This document shows, piece after piece, positions 945-10,435 of a stretch of DNA of 64,000 nucleotides. The position numbers and the translations under genes are program-made. Numbering within the stretch: the first letter of the stretch is position 1; each line of letters starts with the position of its first letter. The stretch comes from Lachnospiraceae bacterium (GTDB lineage Bacteria > Bacillota > Clostridia > Lachnospirales > Lachnospiraceae), in assembly GCA_022767285.1 (NCBI GenBank), contig JALENY010000038.1, positions 1 to 64,000 on the forward strand. Direction: 5' to 3'. The notes under the pieces are model-generated. The model ran no database searches. It had not been told where the DNA came from and saw only the letters and a program-made list of their open reading frames with translations.

Positions 945-974
945 TTGAATAAAACTGCCTTTTGTGAGTATAAT
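945..974 (+). promoter_or_regulatory. Promoter of the crRNA-like RNA gene
   Basis: A TTGAAT box at 945-950 and a perfect TATAAT at 969-974 are 18 bp apart, the form of a vegetative sigma-70/SigA promoter. The expected start is near 980-982, about 48 nt before the degenerate CRISPR repeat at 1029. No convincing protein gene follows, which supports transcription of a small RNA. Confidence 0.7.
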
Positions 975-1028
975 CACTTATGAAAAGCAAAAAGATGCAA
1001 TGGTTTTGGATGCGATGAAGCCATTCTG

Positions 1029-1062
1029 GTCGCTTACCCAAATGGTATGCGTGAGTAGAAAT
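1029..1062 (+). repeat. Degenerate solo CRISPR repeat
   Basis: A 34-nt copy of the 33-bp array repeat. It keeps GTC at the 5' end, a hairpin of the same form and the identical 3' tag TGAGTAGAAAT, while the loop and much of the stem sequence differ. This is the pattern of selection for Cas5c recognition and crRNA tag function rather than random decay of an old array. Confidence 0.85.
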
Positions 1063-1089
1063 GATTTTGATATGTGTTATTAAAAAGGG

Positions 1090-1136
1090 ATAGTTGCTTG
1101 CACGATACAGTTTTCATGCAAAGCAGCTATTTTTTT
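1090..1136 (+). terminator. Intrinsic terminator of the crRNA-like RNA
   Basis: ATAGTTGCTTGCA (1090-1102) pairs with TGCAAAGCAGCTAT (1117-1130), with a single bulged A and one G-U pair, followed by seven T (1130-1136). The 5' arm begins 27 nt after the degenerate repeat, so the guide is probably defined by this hairpin rather than by a second repeat. Confidence 0.8.
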
Positions 1137-1227
1137 GTTGATAAAACATTTTTAATAAGGTGACAAAACTATGCTATGGTTAAACGATTAATAATTGGTT
1201 TTTGAATATAAATGACACTAAAAATCA

Positions 1228-1249
1228 AATAACATATATCAAAATCGAG
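1228..1249 (-). promoter_or_regulatory. Protospacer-like target with PAM in the cas3 promoter region
   Basis: The plus strand reads AATAACATATATCAAAATC at 1228-1246, the reverse complement of the guide at 1063-1081 except at guide position 12 (G opposite T, a tolerated wobble). On the minus strand the bases 5' of the protospacer are CTC (complement of 1247-1249), which fits the YYC PAM described for type I-C. The matched seed is uninterrupted for the first 11 nt. Complementarity stops abruptly after 19 nt (4 of the next 15 match). The site abuts the -35 box at 1250, so a bound Cascade would occlude RNA polymerase. Confidence 0.85.
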
Positions 1250-1278
1250 TTGTAAACTGTGGAATGGAATGCTAAAAT
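1250..1278 (+). promoter_or_regulatory. Promoter of the cas operon
   Basis: TTGTAA (1250-1255) and TAAAAT (1273-1278) are 17 bp apart, giving a start near 1285 and a 5' leader of about 75 nt before cas3. It is the best-spaced pair upstream of cas3. The PAM of the protospacer-like site (1247-1249) touches its -35 box directly. Confidence 0.65.
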
Positions 1279-1359: not shown

Positions 1360-3561
1360 ATGAAATCTGTGTATAAGGCTCATATTAATGAAAATACAAG
1401 AGAAATTCAGACTATCAAAGAACACAGTGAGAATACGGCTGATTTATGCAGGCAGTTTGCAGTGCCGGTATTAAAGGATTTTATGTATAACACTGGATTG
1501 CTGCATGATATAGGAAAATATCAGGAAGATTTTCAGCACCGACTTGATGGAAAAAAAATTAAAGTGGAACATTCTACTTGCGGAGCCATTGCGGTCAAAA
1601 AACTATATCCTGACGCTATTGGTCTGATGATGGAATATAGTATTGCCGGACATCATAGCGGCATTCCCGATGGCGGTTATAAGAATGATACGCCGGATAT
1701 GCCTACGTTGTGCGGAAGGTTAAAACGTAATTTTGAAGATTTCAGTGCATATAAAGAAGAACTAAAGCTTTTGGAAATTAACCGAATGGAAATTATAGAT
1801 TTTTTGATGCAGGACTGTGGGAAAAATAAGGAAATACTTGTGGATAAGTTCGCTTTTTTAACACGATATGCATTTTCTTGTCTTGTGGATGCGGATTCTA
1901 TTGATACCGCCCGCTTTTGCAGCGGGGAAAAAATACGTCCATTGACAGCTGATTTTCAGGCATGCCTGGAAAAGGTGAATGTAAGACTCAATTCTTTTGT
2001 CTGTACGACAACCTTACAGAAAACCCGTGCGCTTTTGCAGCAGCAGGTATTTGGAAAGACTGATGTAAACGGGGAAATCTACCTCATGAATATGCCAACC
2101 GGGAGCGGAAAGACATTGTGCAGTGTGAAATTTGCTTTGGAAAGAGCAATCCGGGCGGGAAAGAAGAGGATCATCTACATAATTCCATATAACAGTATTA
2201 TCGACCAGACGATGACCGTATTTGAAGAAATATTTGGATCTGATGCGGAGATCCTGCGCCATCAGTCAACTTTTTCCTATGAAGAAAATGATTATACAGA
2301 AGATTATCGAAAGGCAGCCAAAAGTGCGGCAGAGAACTGGGATGTGGCCTCAATTATAGTTTCTACGGCTGTTCAGTTTTTTGAATCCGTTTATGCAAAT
2401 AAGCGAGGAAAGCTTCGGAAACTACATAATATGGCAGACAGTATACTGATTTTTGATGAAGCTCATTTGATGCCTCAGAACTATCTGCAGCCATGTCTAC
2501 GTGCAATTACATATATTACAAAATATTTGAATAGTGAAGCGGTGTTTCTGACAGCAACGATGCCTGATTTTCCTAAATTACTTCGGCAGTATGCACTAGA
2601 AAACAGTCAGATTATTGACTTGATTGACGATACCTCTATGTTTTGTGCATTCCGAAAATGTAAGTATCAGACTTTGGGAAAACTTAATGCGGAAAGCCTT
2701 CTTGAAAAGGCCATGAGTTATCCGTCCTCTTTAATTATTGTTAATAAAAAACAGTCTGCAAAAAAGCTTTTTGAATTATGTGGCGGGAAAAAATATCATT
2801 TATCGACATACATGACAGCATATGATCGTGAAAAAATAATTCAGGAAATTCGAAATGAGTTGAAACAATTAGAAAAAGATTTCCCTGATTACAGAGATGT
2901 ACCACCGGGCAGACGGATTACAATCATATCCACATCTTTAATTGAAGCGGGAGTTGATTTGGATATTTACACAGTGTATCGTGAATTATCGGGACTCGAT
3001 AGTATCCTGCAGGCCGGAGGAAGATGTAACCGGGAGGGTAAACGAAACCAGGCCGATGTGTATATATTTGAGTTTGATGATCAGAACAGAATTTCACAGG
3101 ATATGAGAAGTAATATTACAGCAGGCATTTTAGATAAATATGAAGATATTTCGTGTCCGCAGAGCATTAAAGAGTATTATGACAGGCTGTTTTTTGTAAA
3201 AAGAGAAACGATAGAGGGAAAGACAATTACGCGTAATTGTTCTGACATCTATAGTATTCCTTTTGCCGAATATGCACGAGATTTTGAACTGATTGATTCC
3301 GGGACAATTCCGCTGGTTGTAGCACGGGACGAGCTGAGCAGGAAGGTTGTGGATTCATTGAAGTTTACTGGCGGCGGCCTCGGTATTGCGAGACAATTAC
3401 AAAAGTATACATGCTCTGTTTATCAGAAGGAGTTGGATGATCTGATACGACAGCATGTGGTGGATGATTTTGGAACAGGCATTTTATGTCTTACTAATGC
3501 AGATTATTACGATGAGAATACAGGCATTACATTTGAAGCAAAGGATTACTTTGTGTGTTGA
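1360..3561 (+). CDS. cas3: Cas3 nuclease-helicase, type I-C
   Basis: At 733 residues this is a full-length Cas3 with an N-terminal HD nuclease and a C-terminal superfamily 2 helicase. HD-domain metal ligands are visible at H22, H49-D50 (LLHDIGK), H71 and H98-H99. The helicase shows Walker A MPTGSGKT (K251) and DEAH at residues 366-369, with a later QAGGRCNR motif. It is recruited by Cascade after target recognition and unwinds and degrades the non-target strand in the cytoplasm. A GGGTGG ribosome site lies close before the ATG. It is the first gene of the cas operon, and the promoter upstream overlaps the target of the crRNA-like RNA. No truncation or frameshift is seen. Confidence 0.96.
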   Translation: MKSVYKAHINENTREIQTIKEHSENTADLCRQFAVPVLKDFMYNTGLLHDIGKYQEDFQHRLDGKKIKVEHSTCGAIAVKKLYPDAIGLMMEYSIAGHHSGIPDGGYKNDTPDMPTLCGRLKRNFEDFSAYKEELKLLEINRMEIIDFLMQDCGKNKEILVDKFAFLTRYAFSCLVDADSIDTARFCSGEKIRPLTADFQACLEKVNVRLNSFVCTTTLQKTRALLQQQVFGKTDVNGEIYLMNMPTGSGKTLCSVKFALERAIRAGKKRIIYIIPYNSIIDQTMTVFEEIFGSDAEILRHQSTFSYEENDYTEDYRKAAKSAAENWDVASIIVSTAVQFFESVYANKRGKLRKLHNMADSILIFDEAHLMPQNYLQPCLRAITYITKYLNSEAVFLTATMPDFPKLLRQYALENSQIIDLIDDTSMFCAFRKCKYQTLGKLNAESLLEKAMSYPSSLIIVNKKQSAKKLFELCGGKKYHLSTYMTAYDREKIIQEIRNELKQLEKDFPDYRDVPPGRRITIISTSLIEAGVDLDIYTVYRELSGLDSILQAGGRCNREGKRNQADVYIFEFDDQNRISQDMRSNITAGILDKYEDISCPQSIKEYYDRLFFVKRETIEGKTITRNCSDIYSIPFAEYARDFELIDSGTIPLVVARDELSRKVVDSLKFTGGGLGIARQLQKYTCSVYQKELDDLIRQHVVDDFGTGILCLTNADYYDENTGITFEAKDYFVC

Positions 3562-3611
3562 TTAATTGATTGAGAAATAAGTATGTTTTTAGGAAAGGAG
3601 TGAGGAATAGT

Positions 3612-4340
3612 ATGGGCTATGGTTTTAAGATAATGGTAGAAGGTGATTATGCATGCTATACAAGACCCGAGCTAAAAGTAGAAAGAGTAAGTTATGACGT
3701 TCCTACACCCGGGGCACTGGAAGGGATGCTTAAAAGTGTGTATTGGAAACCATCGATACGTTATGTGATTGATAAAATTATTGTGTTCAATGAGATTGAT
3801 TTTATCAATATCCGAAGGAATGAAGTGAAAGACAAGGTGCTTTACAGCGCAGTCAAAGGCCAGATGAATGGTAAAGGTGCAAACCCGTGTATCTATGCAT
3901 CAGAGAGCAGAAGCCAAAGAGCATCTATGATTTTAAAAAATGTAAAGTATGGTGTGGAATTTCATTTTGAATTGACGGGCCTGAAAGATGAAAAGGAAGA
4001 GGATGGGGAAAACAAACATTATAATATTATTAAACGAAGACTGGAAAAAGGCCAGTATTTCAGGTATCCATGTATGGGCTGCAGTGAATTTCCGGTAAAA
4101 AGGATGGAACTGGTAGAAGAGTTTGACGAGAATCTGATCAGCAGCAGAATCCTGGATATGGGAGATGTAGATTTGGGTTTTATGAGCTACAAAGTTGCTT
4201 TTTCTGACCAGGGAAGGCCGGTAAATGATGACTGGGAAAATCCCAGATTTTCCGATAAAGCTTCTACCATGTATTACAGGCCGCATATGGTCAATGGTGT
4301 GATAGATGTGAAAAAATACAGGGAGGAGTTAAGATGCTGA
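3612..4340 (+). CDS. cas5c: Cas5c crRNA endonuclease and Cascade subunit
   Basis: The likely start is ATG 3612 (MGYGFKIMVEGDYACYTRPE), with AGGAAAGGAG upstream; a TTG at 3570 would add 14 residues without family similarity. The 242-residue length is normal. In type I-C systems Cas5c (Cas5d) replaces Cas6: it cuts each repeat at the base of its hairpin, leaving an 11-nt 5' tag, and stays in Cascade. Tyr44 (in LKSVYWKP) sits where the family has its conserved catalytic tyrosine. The expected Lys-His pair seems to be K112-Y113 here, though I could not align it. The 3' end overlaps cas8c by 7 nt. Confidence 0.93.
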   Translation: MGYGFKIMVEGDYACYTRPELKVERVSYDVPTPGALEGMLKSVYWKPSIRYVIDKIIVFNEIDFINIRRNEVKDKVLYSAVKGQMNGKGANPCIYASESRSQRASMILKNVKYGVEFHFELTGLKDEKEEDGENKHYNIIKRRLEKGQYFRYPCMGCSEFPVKRMELVEEFDENLISSRILDMGDVDLGFMSYKVAFSDQGRPVNDDWENPRFSDKASTMYYRPHMVNGVIDVKKYREELRC

Positions 4341-6142
4341 TAAAAGCGCTTAGTGATTACTATGACATTCTCGCTGCAGAAGGGAAAATCCTTCCGGATG
4401 GGTACTCAAAAGTAAATGTACATTATATGATTTGCCTCAATGCAGAAGGGAAAATAGAAGACATCATTGATTGCCAGGAAAAAATACAGAACAAAACGGA
4501 TAAAGGAAAGATAAAGGAAAAGTGGGTACCAAGGATAGAGGAAATGCCCCAGAGAACAGAAAAAACGGGAATTGACAGCAACATAGTTGAGCATCGTCCG
4601 CTTTATATATTCGGACTGAATTGGGAGGAGGAAGGATTAACGCCGGATGATCGAACAGGAAAGGCCAGAAAATCGCATGAAGCATTTGTGAAATCAAATC
4701 TGGAATTTCTGGAAGGAATTGATTCACCAGTGGTGAATGCTTACCGTAATTTCCTGAGGACATGGAAGCCGGAGGAGGAAACAGAGAATGAAAAGCTGCT
4801 GATGCTGGGGAAAAACTACGGAAAATCATGTTTTGCGTTTTGTCTGACTGGATATCCGGATCTGCCTCTGCATAATGATAGGAAGGTCCGACAGAAATGG
4901 GAACAGGTTTACCGTGGTGGAACTTCTGAGAATAAAAAAGGATATGCTGCACAATGTGCGGTCAGCGGGGAAGAATGTGAGATAGCCCGGATTCATAATA
5001 AAATTAAAGGAGTCTATGGCGGCCTTGCCACAGGTTCGGTCCTGATTGGATTTAATAATCCTTCTGAGAGTTCCTATGGAAATGAACAGTCATTTAACAG
5101 CAATATTTCCCAGACGGTTATGAAAAAATACACGGAAGCACTGAATTTTTTGCTGGCAACTTCTAACCATAAAATTCTTTTGGATGATATGACCATTGTA
5201 TTCTGGGCGATGGACACGGGTGAGGTATATGAGGATATGATTTTGGCAATGCTCTGTGGGCAGTCGGATAAAATGAATGCAGAAGAGACAGAAGGTATGC
5301 TGAAGAATCTGCTTGCGAGCGGCAGAAGTGGAAAAGTAACAGAAGGGCGGCTTCAATCTTTGAGTATGATTGAATCGGATGTTGATTTTTATATGCTTGG
5401 GTTAAAACCAAATTCTTCAAGACTTTCTGTTAAATTCATTTTTCGAAAAAAATATGCAGATCTCCTCTGGAACATTGCGCAGTTTCAGAAGGATATACAG
5501 ATCTCCGAAGAATTATATCCGGTTTCTTTTTCCAGGATTAAAGAAGAGCTGCGATCCCCGAAGAGTACTTCGGAAAAAATAAATCCGGCATTACTGACAA
5601 AACTATTTGAGTCAGTTATTTATGGGAATATGTATCCGACGACTCTGCTTGAAACTGTGGTGCGGAGAGTAAAGACTGATCGGAAGAAAGGAGTTAACAG
5701 GGTACGAGCAGGAATTATAAAAGCGTGTATCAATAGAAATTATAAAAGGGAGGAATTTGGAGTGGCACTGGATAAAGAAAATTGTGGACAGGCATATGTA
5801 TGCGGAAGGCTGTTTGCGGTTTTGGAAAAACTGCAGAGGGATGCATCCGGTACAAAGCTTAACAGAACTATTAAAGATGCATATTTTGCATCTGCATCTG
5901 CAAAACCGGCAATGATATTTCCCAAATTGATTAAGCTGGCACAGAATCACTTAAATAAAGTAAACAGTCCAACATATTACAGCATATTATTAGGCGAGAT
6001 TATGGACAAACTGAATGGTGAATTTCCGGAGACACTTTTACTTCAGGATCAGGGGCGGTTTATTATAGGATACTACCAGCAATACCAGAGTTTTTTTGAG
6101 AAAAAAGGGAAAACAGAAAACAACGAAATGGAGGAAAATTAA
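4334..6142 (+). CDS. cas8c: Cas8c large subunit of type I-C Cascade (Csd1)
   Basis: 602 residues, the usual size of Csd1/Cas8c. In this subtype it recognises the PAM, and an internal start within the gene usually also supplies the small subunit (Cas11c), so the C-terminal third may be made separately. The start codon lies inside the end of cas5c with GGAGG 7 nt upstream. Recognition rests on position, length and the family-like start (DYYDILAAEGKILPDGYSKV). It ends 1 nt before cas7. The PAM of the promoter target (CTC) would be read by this protein. Confidence 0.93.
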   Translation: MLIKALSDYYDILAAEGKILPDGYSKVNVHYMICLNAEGKIEDIIDCQEKIQNKTDKGKIKEKWVPRIEEMPQRTEKTGIDSNIVEHRPLYIFGLNWEEEGLTPDDRTGKARKSHEAFVKSNLEFLEGIDSPVVNAYRNFLRTWKPEEETENEKLLMLGKNYGKSCFAFCLTGYPDLPLHNDRKVRQKWEQVYRGGTSENKKGYAAQCAVSGEECEIARIHNKIKGVYGGLATGSVLIGFNNPSESSYGNEQSFNSNISQTVMKKYTEALNFLLATSNHKILLDDMTIVFWAMDTGEVYEDMILAMLCGQSDKMNAEETEGMLKNLLASGRSGKVTEGRLQSLSMIESDVDFYMLGLKPNSSRLSVKFIFRKKYADLLWNIAQFQKDIQISEELYPVSFSRIKEELRSPKSTSEKINPALLTKLFESVIYGNMYPTTLLETVVRRVKTDRKKGVNRVRAGIIKACINRNYKREEFGVALDKENCGQAYVCGRLFAVLEKLQRDASGTKLNRTIKDAYFASASAKPAMIFPKLIKLAQNHLNKVNSPTYYSILLGEIMDKLNGEFPETLLLQDQGRFIIGYYQQYQSFFEKKGKTENNEMEEN

Positions 6143-6143
6143 G

Positions 6144-7004
6144 ATGGCAATTGAGAACAGATATGATTTCGTAATGCTTTTTGACGTGGAAAACGGTAAT
6201 CCAAATGGTGACCCGGATGCAGGGAATGCTCCTCGTGTAGACCCGGAAACAGGATGCGGATATATTACTGATGTATGCCTGAAAAGAAAAATCCGAAATT
6301 TTGTGGAATTATATAAAGAAGGAGATGAAGGTTATAATATTTTGATTAAACCGGACAGATATCTCAATGCAAAGTTTACGGAGGCATATGAGAAGGAAGG
6401 ATTGAAAACGAAAAATAAAGGGAAAAATGCGGATGATGTGAAGACTGCCCGCGATTTTATGTGCAGAAATTATTTTGATGTGCGGGCGTTTGGTGCAGTT
6501 ATGTCAACAGGTGAAGATCCATGCGGTATTGTAAGAGGGCCTGTTCAGATTAACTTTGCCAGAAGCTTATCTCCTATCAATATTCAGGATGTATCTATTA
6601 CCCGTCAGGCCCGCACAACGGAGGCAAGAACCGAAACAGGAGAAACTGAGATGGGAAGAAAAAGCGTTATTCCATATGCTCTTTATCGGGCGGAAGGTTA
6701 TGTATCTGCGGCACTTGCAAATAAGGTGACAAAACTGTCAGAAGACGATCTTGAGTTATTGTGGACTGCTATTGTTAATATGTTTGAAAATGACCACAGT
6801 GCAGCGAGGGGAAAAATGTGTATGAGAAAACTGTATGTTTTCAAACACAGTAATGTTTTAGGAAATTGTCCGTCACATATTTTGTTTGACAAGATACGGG
6901 TAGACTTAAAAAATCAGGAAGAGCCGCCGCGTAAGTTTGTAGATTATCAGATTACAGTGGAAGAGCAGATGCCGGAAGGTGTCGAATTGATTGAAAAGTT
7001 ATGA
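6144..7004 (+). CDS. cas7: Cas7 backbone subunit of type I-C Cascade (Csd2)
   Basis: ATG 6144, with GGAGG at 6130-6134, gives a 286-residue protein beginning MAIENRYDFVMLFDVENGNP, the normal Csd2 start; an upstream in-frame ATG inside cas8c is not needed. Several copies coat the guide part of the crRNA. The NGNPNGDPD segment and the later ITRQARTTEART stretch are typical of the family. The stop overlaps the cas4 start (ATGA at 7001-7004), so the two are probably translationally coupled. Confidence 0.95.
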   Translation: MAIENRYDFVMLFDVENGNPNGDPDAGNAPRVDPETGCGYITDVCLKRKIRNFVELYKEGDEGYNILIKPDRYLNAKFTEAYEKEGLKTKNKGKNADDVKTARDFMCRNYFDVRAFGAVMSTGEDPCGIVRGPVQINFARSLSPINIQDVSITRQARTTEARTETGETEMGRKSVIPYALYRAEGYVSAALANKVTKLSEDDLELLWTAIVNMFENDHSAARGKMCMRKLYVFKHSNVLGNCPSHILFDKIRVDLKNQEEPPRKFVDYQITVEEQMPEGVELIEKL

Positions 7005-7675
7005 GTATGATAGAAATTTCCATTCGTTCTATTCAGCATTATATGTATTGCCCGCATCGATGGGGACTGTTGGAGATTGACAAAGCATGGGCTGAAAATG
7101 CATTTGTGACAAAGGCAAATCTCATGCATGACCGAGTTCATGACCCTGAACAGAATTACATATCAAGAGGAAAAAAGGTATATACATCTGTTCCGGTTTA
7201 TAATGATTTGGATGAGTATAATTTATATGGTGTAACCGATTGTCTGGAAATGACAGAGAATAAAAATGGAATTTCAATAGACGGGAGTGAAGAAAAATAT
7301 AATATCTGCATTGTAGAGTATAAGCCGACCAAACCAAAGAATGAAGAGTACCATGGAGAAGATCTGATGCAGGTGTTTGCTCAGAAAGTTTGCGTGGATT
7401 ATGTATTTGGCGGTGATTGCGAAGCGGTTCTGTACTATGCAGATGTAAAGAAACGCATTAAGCTTCCTTTAAAAGATAACTTTGAGGTGTATGACAGACA
7501 ATTGATAGAATTACTGAAAGAAATGAGAAGTAATTTAGAGCGGGGCATGATCCCGCCAATTCGAAAAGGGCAGAAATGCAGCGGATGCTCTATGAAAGAT
7601 TTGTGTATGCCATCGATTAAAAAAACAGGCAATTTTTGGTCTGAAATCCGGAAAATTCAAGAGACAGAAGTGTAA
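7001..7675 (+). CDS. cas4: Cas4 adaptation nuclease
   Basis: 224 residues with the RecB-like nuclease motifs D80 (GVTD), E106-x-K108 (VEYKP) and Q124 (LMQVFAQK). Four cysteines that can hold an iron-sulphur cluster are at C17 and C193, C196, C202 (CSGCSMKDLC). Cas4 works with Cas1-Cas2 to trim prespacers and select those next to a correct PAM. It overlaps cas7 by 4 nt and is followed 25 nt later by cas1. All key residues are present, so spacer acquisition should be possible. Confidence 0.95.
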   Translation: MSMIEISIRSIQHYMYCPHRWGLLEIDKAWAENAFVTKANLMHDRVHDPEQNYISRGKKVYTSVPVYNDLDEYNLYGVTDCLEMTENKNGISIDGSEEKYNICIVEYKPTKPKNEEYHGEDLMQVFAQKVCVDYVFGGDCEAVLYYADVKKRIKLPLKDNFEVYDRQLIELLKEMRSNLERGMIPPIRKGQKCSGCSMKDLCMPSIKKTGNFWSEIRKIQETEV

Positions 7676-7700
7676 GTACGTTAGCTGAAGAGGAAAGATT

Positions 7701-8723
7701 ATGAGAAAGCTATTAAATACAATCTATATTACGAATGAATTGACCTATTTGACGCTGGATGGAGAGAATCTTGTATGTAAGATTGAGGGGGAAACAAAGC
7801 TACGAATTCCTTTCGAGAATATTGAAAATATTGTATGTTTTAATTATGTGGGATGCTCGCCAGCTTTGATGGGAAAATGTGTGAGCAAAACCATTCCAAT
7901 TAATTTTATCTCTCCGCAGGGGAAATTTTTAGCAAAAGTTTGTGGAGAAACGAAAGGAAATGTTTTTCTGAGAGTCGCACAGATTGACAGATTCAGAGAG
8001 TGTGGATTAACCCTTTCACAAAATACGATGGCAGCCAAGTTTAGTAATACACGTCAGCTTATCCGAAGAACGCTTCATGATAATGTGCTGTTAAGGGATG
8101 ATGAACTAATTAATAAGGTGATGGAGATACTTGCTTCTGGGATTGAGAAAGTATTTGATGCAAAAACGATTGAAGAGGTTATGGGTATTGAAGGTAATTG
8201 TGCTCAAAATTATTTTTCTGTTTTTAATAAGTTAATTACAAATCAAAAAGTTCCTTTTACGTTTGAACTTCGAACAAAGCGACCACCATTGGATCCTGTA
8301 AATGCTGTATTATCATTTGTATATACTTTGCTTACCAGTGAATTTGCGGCAGCCTTGGAAACAGTTGGCTTGGACAGCTATATTGGTTTTTGTCATGCGT
8401 TGCGTAGTGGGCGAAGTTCTCTGGCCTGTGATTTAGTGGAGGAAGCCCGTTGTATAGCGGAACGATTTGTTCTTACTCTTTTAAATTTGCAGATAGTAGG
8501 AGAAAAAGATTTTGAACGGCAAATATCAGGTGCAGTATGGTTAAATGATGAAGGACGAAAGAAAGTGCTGACTCGTTGGCAGGAAAAGAAACGTTCGGAT
8601 ATCGTCCATCCATATCTGAAACAGAAAATACCGCTTGGCCTTCTTCCATATGTACAAAGTAATTTGCTTGCAAAGTACGTAAGGGGGGAACTAGAAAGCT
8701 ATCCCCCCTATTTAGTAAAGTAG
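7701..8723 (+). CDS. cas1: Cas1 integrase
   Basis: 340 residues, the usual length for type I-C Cas1. The metal-binding catalytic triad is visible as E164 (MGIEGN), H232 (FCHALRSGR) and D244 (ACDLVEEAR). Together with Cas2 it inserts new spacers at the leader end of the array, here the side next to cas2. An AGAGGAAAG ribosome site precedes the ATG. No defect is seen. Confidence 0.96.
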   Translation: MRKLLNTIYITNELTYLTLDGENLVCKIEGETKLRIPFENIENIVCFNYVGCSPALMGKCVSKTIPINFISPQGKFLAKVCGETKGNVFLRVAQIDRFRECGLTLSQNTMAAKFSNTRQLIRRTLHDNVLLRDDELINKVMEILASGIEKVFDAKTIEEVMGIEGNCAQNYFSVFNKLITNQKVPFTFELRTKRPPLDPVNAVLSFVYTLLTSEFAAALETVGLDSYIGFCHALRSGRSSLACDLVEEARCIAERFVLTLLNLQIVGEKDFERQISGAVWLNDEGRKKVLTRWQEKKRSDIVHPYLKQKIPLGLLPYVQSNLLAKYVRGELESYPPYLVK

Positions 8724-8734
8724 GTGAATGAAGT

Positions 8735-9025
8735 ATGATGGTATTAATTAGCTATGATGTCAGTACAACAAATAATTCGGGAAAAACTCGATTACGTAAA
8801 GTAGCAAAAGAATGTCAGAATCATGCTCAGCGGGTACAGAATTCTGTGTTTGAGGCAGATCTGGATTATTCATCTTTTTTAAAATTAAAAGCCAGATTGT
8901 GTGAGTTGATTGATCCTAATGAAGATAGTTTGCGTTTTTATTATCTGGGAAATAACTGGGAGAAACGGGTAGAACATATAGGTGCGAAAAAAACATATAA
9001 TCCGGAAGGCGTAATTATAATTTGA
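8735..9025 (+). CDS. cas2: Cas2 adaptation protein
   Basis: 96 residues with the ferredoxin-like fold start MVLISYDVST and the conserved Asp8. Cas2 is the dimeric core that bridges two Cas1 dimers. The gene begins 11 nt after cas1; ATG 8735 and ATG 8738 are both possible starts. It is the last cas gene, and 242 nt separate it from the first repeat. Confidence 0.95.
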   Translation: MMVLISYDVSTTNNSGKTRLRKVAKECQNHAQRVQNSVFEADLDYSSFLKLKARLCELIDPNEDSLRFYYLGNNWEKRVEHIGAKKTYNPEGVIII

Positions 9026-9267: not shown

Positions 9268-10435
9268 GTCACGTCCCGCGAGGGACGTGTGAGTAGAAAT
9301 ACCTGGTTCACGTATGTACTCAATCCAGCCACCAGTCACGTCCCGCGAGGGACGTGTGAGTAGAAATCCGTCGCCCTGTACATACAGGTCGATGATGGTA
9401 CGTCACGTCCCGCGAGGGACGTGTGAGTAGAAATGCTGCTTGTATAAACATCAAATCCGGCTGCTTTGGTCACGTCCCGCGAGGGACGTGTGAGTAGAAA
9501 TGTAGGAGATAGAATGAGGGCAATATCAGGTAGTTGTCACGTCCCGCGAGGGACGTGTGAGTAGAAATAAAAATAATTACGACATAACTGCAGAGATGGC
9601 AGTCACGTCCCGCGAGGGACGTGTGAGTAGAAATCTTGATGCATCTATGGATGCAGAACTAAACGGCGTCACGTCCCGCGAGGGACGTGTGAGTAGAAAT
9701 GGCAGAAAGCAATGGAGAAAAGAAAGCCCAAGGGTCACGTCCCGCGAGGGACGTGTGAGTAGAAATCCATTGACAGTGCAACACAGGCGATTCAGAAACG
9801 TCACGTCCCGCGAGGGACGTGTGAGTAGAAATTGTCCGGATGTCTGATCATACAGTTCCACGGCCGTCACGTCCCGCGAGGGACGTGTGAGTAGAAATGA
9901 CCGTATCGAAGCACAGACCATGTACACGGCATTGTCACGTCCCGCGAGGGACGTGTGAGTAGAAATCCGTTGATAGTATGGATGCGACCAACACAGTCTG
10001 TCACGTCCCGCGAGGGACGTGTGAGTAGAAATGAATTTTATTTCAATATCCTTTAGAGACCAATATGTCACGTCCCGCGAGGGACGTGTGAGTAGAAATG
10101 CAGGCGATCGTGATCTGTGCCGGATCATAATTGTCACGTCCCGCGAGGGACGTGTGAGTAGAAATCTGGCAGGAAAAGAGTCCATTGAATTATGTTTAAG
10201 TCACGTCCCGCGAGGGACGTGTGAGTAGAAATACTGATCAGTACGGAATCACTTAACCCTCCCCTGGTCACGTCCCGCGAGGGACGTGTGAGTAGAAATT
10301 TATTGGACTTGATGTATGCAACCACCTCGCTCATCGTCACGTCCCGCGAGGGACGTGTGAGTAGAAATCCGATTAACATCATAAAGACAGAAGAAGCCTA
10401 TGGTCACGTCCCGCGAGGGACGTGTGAGTAGAAAT
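9268..10435 (+). CRISPR. Type I-C CRISPR array, 18 repeats and 17 spacers
   Basis: Eighteen identical 33-bp repeats start at 9268, 9335, 9402, 9469, 9536, 9602, 9668, 9734, 9800, 9866, 9934, 10000, 10067, 10133, 10200, 10267, 10336 and 10403. Spacers are 33-36 nt. The repeat begins GTC, then a 7-bp hairpin (ACGTCCC, loop GCGA, GGGACGT) and ends in the 11-nt tag TGAGTAGAAAT. The array follows cas2 on the same strand, so the leader-proximal (newest) spacer is at 9301. The absence of any repeat variation suggests an active or recently active array. No spacer obviously matches the rest of this window, and targets cannot be named without a search. Confidence 0.98.

Follow-up and report, generated by a model that had tools for sequence, protein, structure and literature searches.

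A stand-alone gene upstream of a type I-C cas operon in a Lachnospiraceae bacterium very probably encodes a CreR-type crRNA-like RNA (predicted at 981-1136), with which the type I-C Cascade, positioned beside the predicted cas3 promoter, would repress the whole cas operon. The evidence comes from sequence comparison within the window, by which we mean the whole stretch of 64,000 nucleotides that was analysed (positions 1 to 64,000 of contig JALENY010000038.1, assembly GCA_022767285.1), and among type I-C loci of related genomes. A preliminary description of this DNA had already proposed a crRNA-like gene whose product makes Cascade repress the cas operon that encodes it. That proposal fits the cognate target, the PAM-like flank and the mismatch at a flipped-out base described below, as well as the guide-target pairs found in 18 other loci.

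The comparison also makes a broader reading likely, with less confidence than the first: type I-C systems of the Bacillota would possess a family of fast-changing, single-repeat autorepressor RNAs. The effective guides of this family would have a set length of about 17 nt, corresponding to three Cas7 segments (5+5+5, positions 6 and 12 being free), and would be shortened by a terminator. The PAM would be that of each clade's Cascade, and guide and promoter would be paired anew in each lineage, amounting to a natural rule for the extent of pairing that gives binding without cutting.

The type I-C locus and its crRNA-like unit

The window stands at the beginning of contig C16, with only 980 bases of the contig upstream of the crRNA-like gene; the genome measures 2.67 Mb. 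It holds a complete type I-C operon, cas3-cas5c-cas8c-cas7-cas4-cas1-cas2 (1360-9025), and an array with 17 spacers of 33-36 nt each (Table 1). A search of the same genus yielded one other genome only, which lacked Cas5c. Elsewhere in the window, a small protein at 567-788, about 160 nt 5' of the promoter-like site of the crRNA-like gene, matched DUF3791 barely above the cut-off, and a glycine riboswitch (RF00504, 28549-28648) was the only Rfam match at the gathering threshold.

Table 1. Positions of the observed and predicted features in the window
Feature	Position	Strand	Basis or remark
Promoter-like site of the crRNA-like gene, TTGAAT-18-TATAAT	945..974	+	10/12 consensus bases
Predicted CreR-type crRNA-like RNA	981..1136	+	geometry of promoter and terminator
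Degenerate CRISPR repeat: imperfect hairpin, then tag	1029..1062	+	sequence; hairpin -7.6 kcal/mol
5' tag, 11 nt, TGAGTAGAAAT	1052..1062	+	identical to the tag of the array repeat
Guide matching DNA upstream of cas3, positions 1-19	1063..1081	+	sole mismatch at position 12
Terminator-like hairpin (1089-1131) and T-run	1089..1139	+	folding; starts downstream of guide nt 26
Protospacer (target) matched by the guide, 5' of cas3	1228..1246	-	18/19 nt matched
PAM-like flank, CTC on the minus strand	1247..1249	-	flank sequence; CTY phage flanks in a related array
Predicted cas3 operon promoter, TTGTAA-17-TAAAAT	1250..1278	+	best-scoring promoter-like site within the 350 nt before cas3
cas3	1360..3561	+	TIGR01587, TIGR01596
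cas5c	3612..4340	+	TIGR01876
cas8c	4334..6142	+	TIGR01863
cas7 (csd2)	6144..7004	+	TIGR02589
cas4	7001..7675	+	TIGR00372
cas1	7701..8723	+	TIGR03640, type I-C Cas1
cas2	8735..9025	+	TIGR01573
CRISPR array	9268..10435	+	18 repeats of 33 nt, all identical

The unit is built on a single degenerate repeat located 8.2 kb 5' of the 18-copy array. The stem of this repeat is unlike that of the array repeat, yet it still pairs with one mismatch, and its last 11 nt are identical to those of the array repeat. The 11-mer tag occurs 20 times in the genome: 18 times in the array, once in the degenerate repeat and once on another contig (an exact copy at G000:C32:63567-63577, minus strand). The repeat search listed no second repeat after the unit; a CRISPR array would comprise at least two, flanking spacers of array length. 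The layout given in the preliminary description was thus confirmed: a lone degenerate repeat outside the array and 8 kb away from it, one guide-like stretch with no second repeat, an 11-nt tag at 1052 and a near-consensus promoter ahead of the repeat. Downstream of that promoter-like site, the RNA would start near 981. The intrinsic terminator, claimed in the same description, was supported by folding, which gave a stem at 1089-1131 of -17.6 kcal/mol followed by TTTTTGTT, but not by the consensus terminator scan, which has a loop limit of 8 and reported no terminators. The RNA from 981 to 1138 folded better than 200 of 200 shuffled sequences (z -3.25).

A target beside the predicted cas3 promoter

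The preliminary description named no target. By sequence comparison, we found one for the guide (1063-1081) on the minus strand at 1228-1246, directly upstream of the predicted cas3 promoter: its CTC flank adjoins the -35 box of that promoter (1250-1255), of which the -10 box lies at 1273-1278. When positions 6, 12 and 18 were left free, a search of the whole genome returned two places for the guide pattern, the guide itself and the target. The distance from guide start to cas3 is 297 nt. The unit has two of the marks by which a CreR is recognised, namely a degenerate repeat outside the array and close to the cas genes, and a guide partly complementary to PAM-flanked DNA at a predicted cas promoter, with matching at chance level beyond the paired stretch. 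Cascade is reported to flip out or kink the crRNA at positions 6, 12, 18, 24 and 30 in type I-E (PMC5965380), and the sole mismatch in the window guide coincides with one of these bases.

A scan of genome contigs with Cas3 yielded a single locus. The closest relative found was a locus from a Blautia MAG (L215) with a Cas3 85% identical to that of the window. At L215:1861-1930 it carries a very similar degenerate repeat and a guide whose seed positions 1-12 are identical to those of the window, preceded by an altered tag, TGAGTAGAGAT. No target was found within the 11.9 kb of this locus, the best other match having 4 mismatches in 15; either the unit would be decayed or orphaned, or its promoter would have been exchanged. 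Among relatives with 59-66% Cas3 identity, three of six (L104, L110 and L111) had no pair by the rules described next.

Guide-target pairs in other type I-C loci

Loci were sampled by Cas5c (TIGR01876). Scores above the cut-off were obtained for 81 of 397 genomes from the family to which the window belongs, 103 of 398 genomes of a phylum sample and 56 of 392 genomes of an order sample, the three samples overlapping. From the family sample, 80 of the 85 places besides the window were fetched (omitting G125, G148, G047 and the second places of G247 and G052). The order sample had 57 places above the cut-off, 14 of them already taken, and 40 of the 43 others were fetched (omitting G869, G1102 and G805). 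The phylum sample contributed 60 places from the upper part of its list; 11 were passed over, mostly, though not all, for too little contig room. Of these 180 loci and the window, 10 were dropped for want of a cas3 start, leaving 171. The strict rule demanded a recognisable tag, a target within 1.5 kb of cas3, a YTN flank and, over the 17 nt that follow the tag, no more than one mismatch apart from any at positions 6 and 12. The tag was required because a pair search blind to it gave too many pairs (10021, arrays included).

Sites that shared 80% or more of the repeat sequence were treated as array-like, and 96 of them were removed. This left 200 non-array tag-like sites in the 1500 nt before cas3, distributed over 100 of the 171 loci. 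Nineteen of the 171 loci, the window included, had a guide match with a YTN flank in their own region, and 152 had no pair by the strict rule; these are counts of loci that ignore kinship. Guides swapped to the regions of other loci matched in 1 of 4972 comparisons, and in none with a YTN flank. Dropping the PAM raised the number of matching loci to 22; the extra three (L051, L173 and L183) proved to be array-related matches and were rejected as pairs, also from the position-blind count given below. The first set had pairs in 15 of its 75 loci. The corresponding figure was 4 of 96 (L124, L125, L166 and L170) for the later set, which was held out for guides and targets but not for tags, the tag list having been drawn up after the array repeats of all loci had been viewed.

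For further comparison, a set of 23 loci was assembled from the 19 strict pairs and four from a looser search (L054, L055, L102 and L107); L164, found in the search with the position-blind rule, is not part of it. The 23 guides are unrelated to one another (on average 5.8 of 17 positions identical, at best 12), so that guide and target would have changed together or arisen anew; the same unrelatedness limits the concern that shared ancestry inflates the counts. Targets lie on the plus strand in 15 of the 23 and on the minus strand in 8. Distances are relative to a cas3 start that is an estimate in every locus, and two targets are far from it (L039 at -681 and L170 at -787).

Two loci have a tandem arrangement. 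In L106, a guide at -253 matches two tandem sites 23 nt apart (-137 and -160 from cas3), both flanked by CTT, possibly forming a double operator. In L062, two tag-like sites lie 17 nt apart, at about -208 and -225 from cas3, and only the second has a matching guide, its target being beside a promoter-like site.

The other parts of the unit recurred as well. A hairpin before the tag, ending 11-13 nt before the guide, was present in 18 of the 23 loci, with 6.6 expected from shuffling. A terminator-like hairpin (-13 kcal/mol or lower) began 14-44 nt downstream of the first guide base in 18 of 23 as compared with 8 of 148 random places. By those thresholds, five of the 23 have no repeat hairpin and five no terminator. 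The promoter test covered 19 of the 23 loci, the four with targets beyond -320 being omitted. The best promoter, picked blind to the target, was touched by the 37-nt R-loop footprint, allowing 10 nt of leeway, in 12 of the 19 (4.5 expected; P 3e-4); it was away from the target in L045, L052, L100, L107, L108, L124 and L166.

A mismatch rhythm of six nucleotides

Freeing positions 6 and 12 gave pairs in 19 loci, whereas each of the ten alternative phases of this six-position spacing gave 6-9 loci. A position-blind rule (at most 3 mismatches in 17, with a YTN flank) was passed by 22 sites, and by swapped guides in 2 of 2984 comparisons. In the 22 sites, mismatches fell at position 6 in 12 and at position 12 in 16, together 28 of 44 cells; the other 15 positions accounted for 16 mismatches in 330 cells, seven of these 16 at position 17 (Fisher P 6e-20 for positions 6 and 12 versus the rest, with cells taken as independent). 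Identity over positions 18-34 was 27% (101 of 374), the level of chance after position 17. This rhythm over 22 loci points to the involvement of Cascade; together with the match of about 17 nt, it would be the mark of selection for Cascade binding over about three Cas7 segments.

PAM evidence

The apparent PAM goes with the repeat class. All six paired loci with a TAGAAA tag, the class of the window (the window, L102, L103, L106, L107 and L108), have CTC or CTT at the target; of the 17 others in the 23-locus set, 16 have TTN, and L057 has CTC. For comparison, the PAM consensus of the Bacillus halodurans type I-C system is NTTC (PMC6546366). Matches to six spacers of the L103 array were present in two small phage records that lack annotation and come from human faeces (L216 and L217), with 0 to 5 mismatches each and five of the six in one record; their flanks are CTT, CTT, CTC, CTT, TTC and CTC, i.e., CTY in five of six. 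Eight of the 17 window spacers (1-4, 6-8 and 11) were searched against viral contigs using the first 26 nt with positions 6, 12, 18 and 24 free, and each returned 0 matches. Neither the window array nor that of L110 had a match in phages, and in view of this result for its own spacers the PAM of the window is assigned by analogy with its clade. A resemblance of the L215 array to one record (66%, 10 places) was taken as noise.

Proposed mechanism

We propose that the RNA would be transcribed from its own promoter (945-974), cut by Cas5c at 1051/1052 and loaded into Cas8c-Cas7-Cas5c. The complex would then form an incomplete R-loop at 1228-1246, about 17-19 nt in length, and by crowding the adjacent -35 box (1250-1255) would be a steric obstacle to RNA polymerase. 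With pairing ending after about three Cas7 segments, Cascade would stay on the site without calling Cas3; such an early end of pairing, by not recruiting Cas3, is proposed to spare the cell from cutting its own DNA. By analogy with described CreRs (PMC12737573), the crRNAs of the array would be competitors of this RNA for Cas proteins, and a loss of Cascade, e.g., by the action of an anti-CRISPR, would release the brake.

Alternative explanations

The unit might be an inert relic, a stray repeat-spacer unit whose spacer came by chance from the DNA upstream of its own cas3, and the L215 unit, with a repeat and a guide seed but no target, has the look of such decay. A self-derived spacer, however, would match its source from end to end (33-36 nt here) without mismatches placed at positions 6 and 12, whereas over the 22 pairs identity is at chance after position 17; the guides are also unrelated between loci, and terminator-like hairpins follow the guide in 18 of 23. 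We consider a relic very improbable. An RNA of the proposed kind could also lead Cascade to activate or switch the promoter rather than repress it, given that the paired part is upstream of the -35 box in the window and at many plus-strand targets. In 12 of 19 loci, the 37-nt footprint nevertheless touches the promoter core or lies no more than 10 nt from it, and the CreRs described are repressors (PMC13131331), so that activation is also very unlikely. The targets on both strands speak against yet another reading, plain antisense action on the cas mRNA, even though the plus strand is the one to which the guide is complementary. Transcription of that mRNA is predicted to start downstream of the target (-10 box at 1273-1278), which makes pairing with that mRNA an unlikely mode of action, and the mismatches keep the rhythm of Cascade; antisense action is exceedingly improbable.

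Two further alternatives retain a crRNA-like RNA and assign it another role. As a CreA-type antitoxin, it would repress a small toxin gene on the cas3 promoter, with cas repression as a side effect. CreTA modules employ the same kind of RNA (PMC9458426), and an open frame of 14 codons (1291-1335, seen by eye) follows the predicted promoter in the cas3 leader. The corresponding place in L215, however, again judged by eye, has no such frame, no frame of at least 60 aa lies between target and cas3 in the window, and, whereas CreA acts on a toxin-gene promoter, the target here adjoins the best-scoring promoter-like site upstream of cas3. Such an antitoxin is therefore highly unlikely. The unit could also stem from a phage or plasmid as a Racr, an anti-CRISPR RNA with a solitary repeat; such repeats are often preceded by promoters and occur for type I-C too (PMC10651486). 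The unit nonetheless adjoins the host's own cas operon, with a guide start 297 nt from cas3 where a Racr would be phage- or plasmid-borne and away from cas genes; its guide has a target there, and the same layout with other guides recurs in other loci. We give this origin almost no credence.

Relation to known RNAs

A natural RNA that makes a CRISPR effector repress its own operon is the long tracrRNA of type II-A, which differs from the RNA described here in being specific to Cas9 and another RNA altogether. Shmakov et al. 2023 (NAR) reportedly surveyed repeat-like units in CRISPR loci that often pair partly with cas promoters, mostly in type I. These standalone-repeat crRNA-like elements are like the unit described here in having a repeat-like unit and partial pairing to the cas promoter, and the survey may already include I-C examples.

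The preliminary description suspected that the arrangement lacked precedent, which was too strong: CreR autorepression has been reported for I-B, I-E and V-A (PMC13131331), and CreR has been called widely distributed in type I (PMC12737573). In these accounts, as in the window, a crRNA-like RNA near the cas genes pairs partially with a cas promoter (PMC13131331, PMC12737573); the unit described here differs in belonging to type I-C, in which Cas6 is absent and Cas5c cuts, and in having a single repeat and a terminator soon after a short guide. CreA of CreTA shares degenerate repeats and the use of Cascade as a repressor (PMC9458426), but CreA mostly has two repeats, and the target in the window is beside the cas3 promoter with no toxin gene seen. 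Racr RNAs (RacrIC1) share the solitary repeat but are encoded by phages or plasmids and inhibit Cas proteins, and the portion of that report used here describes no cas promoter target (PMC10651486). For type I-C systems, a candidate structured RNA named CRISPRCas_18 has been noted some 300 nt 5' of cas3, and the portion of that report used here gives it no guide (PMC9067536). In our literature search, no description of a type I-C CreR was recognised among the matches listed. The CreR kind is already known; the part most likely to be new is the rule of 17 nt and a 6-nt rhythm over many natural pairs.

Biological meaning

Type I-C is among the commonest subtypes and has a minimal Cascade (PMC7684278). 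If our reading is true, it has a built-in brake by which it would tune its own level, and phage anti-CRISPRs would be linked to higher Cas production. The natural guide-target pairs form a data set that shows which positions of the guide are important when Cascade binds in the cell, and they suggest what length of pairing is tolerated without self-destruction.
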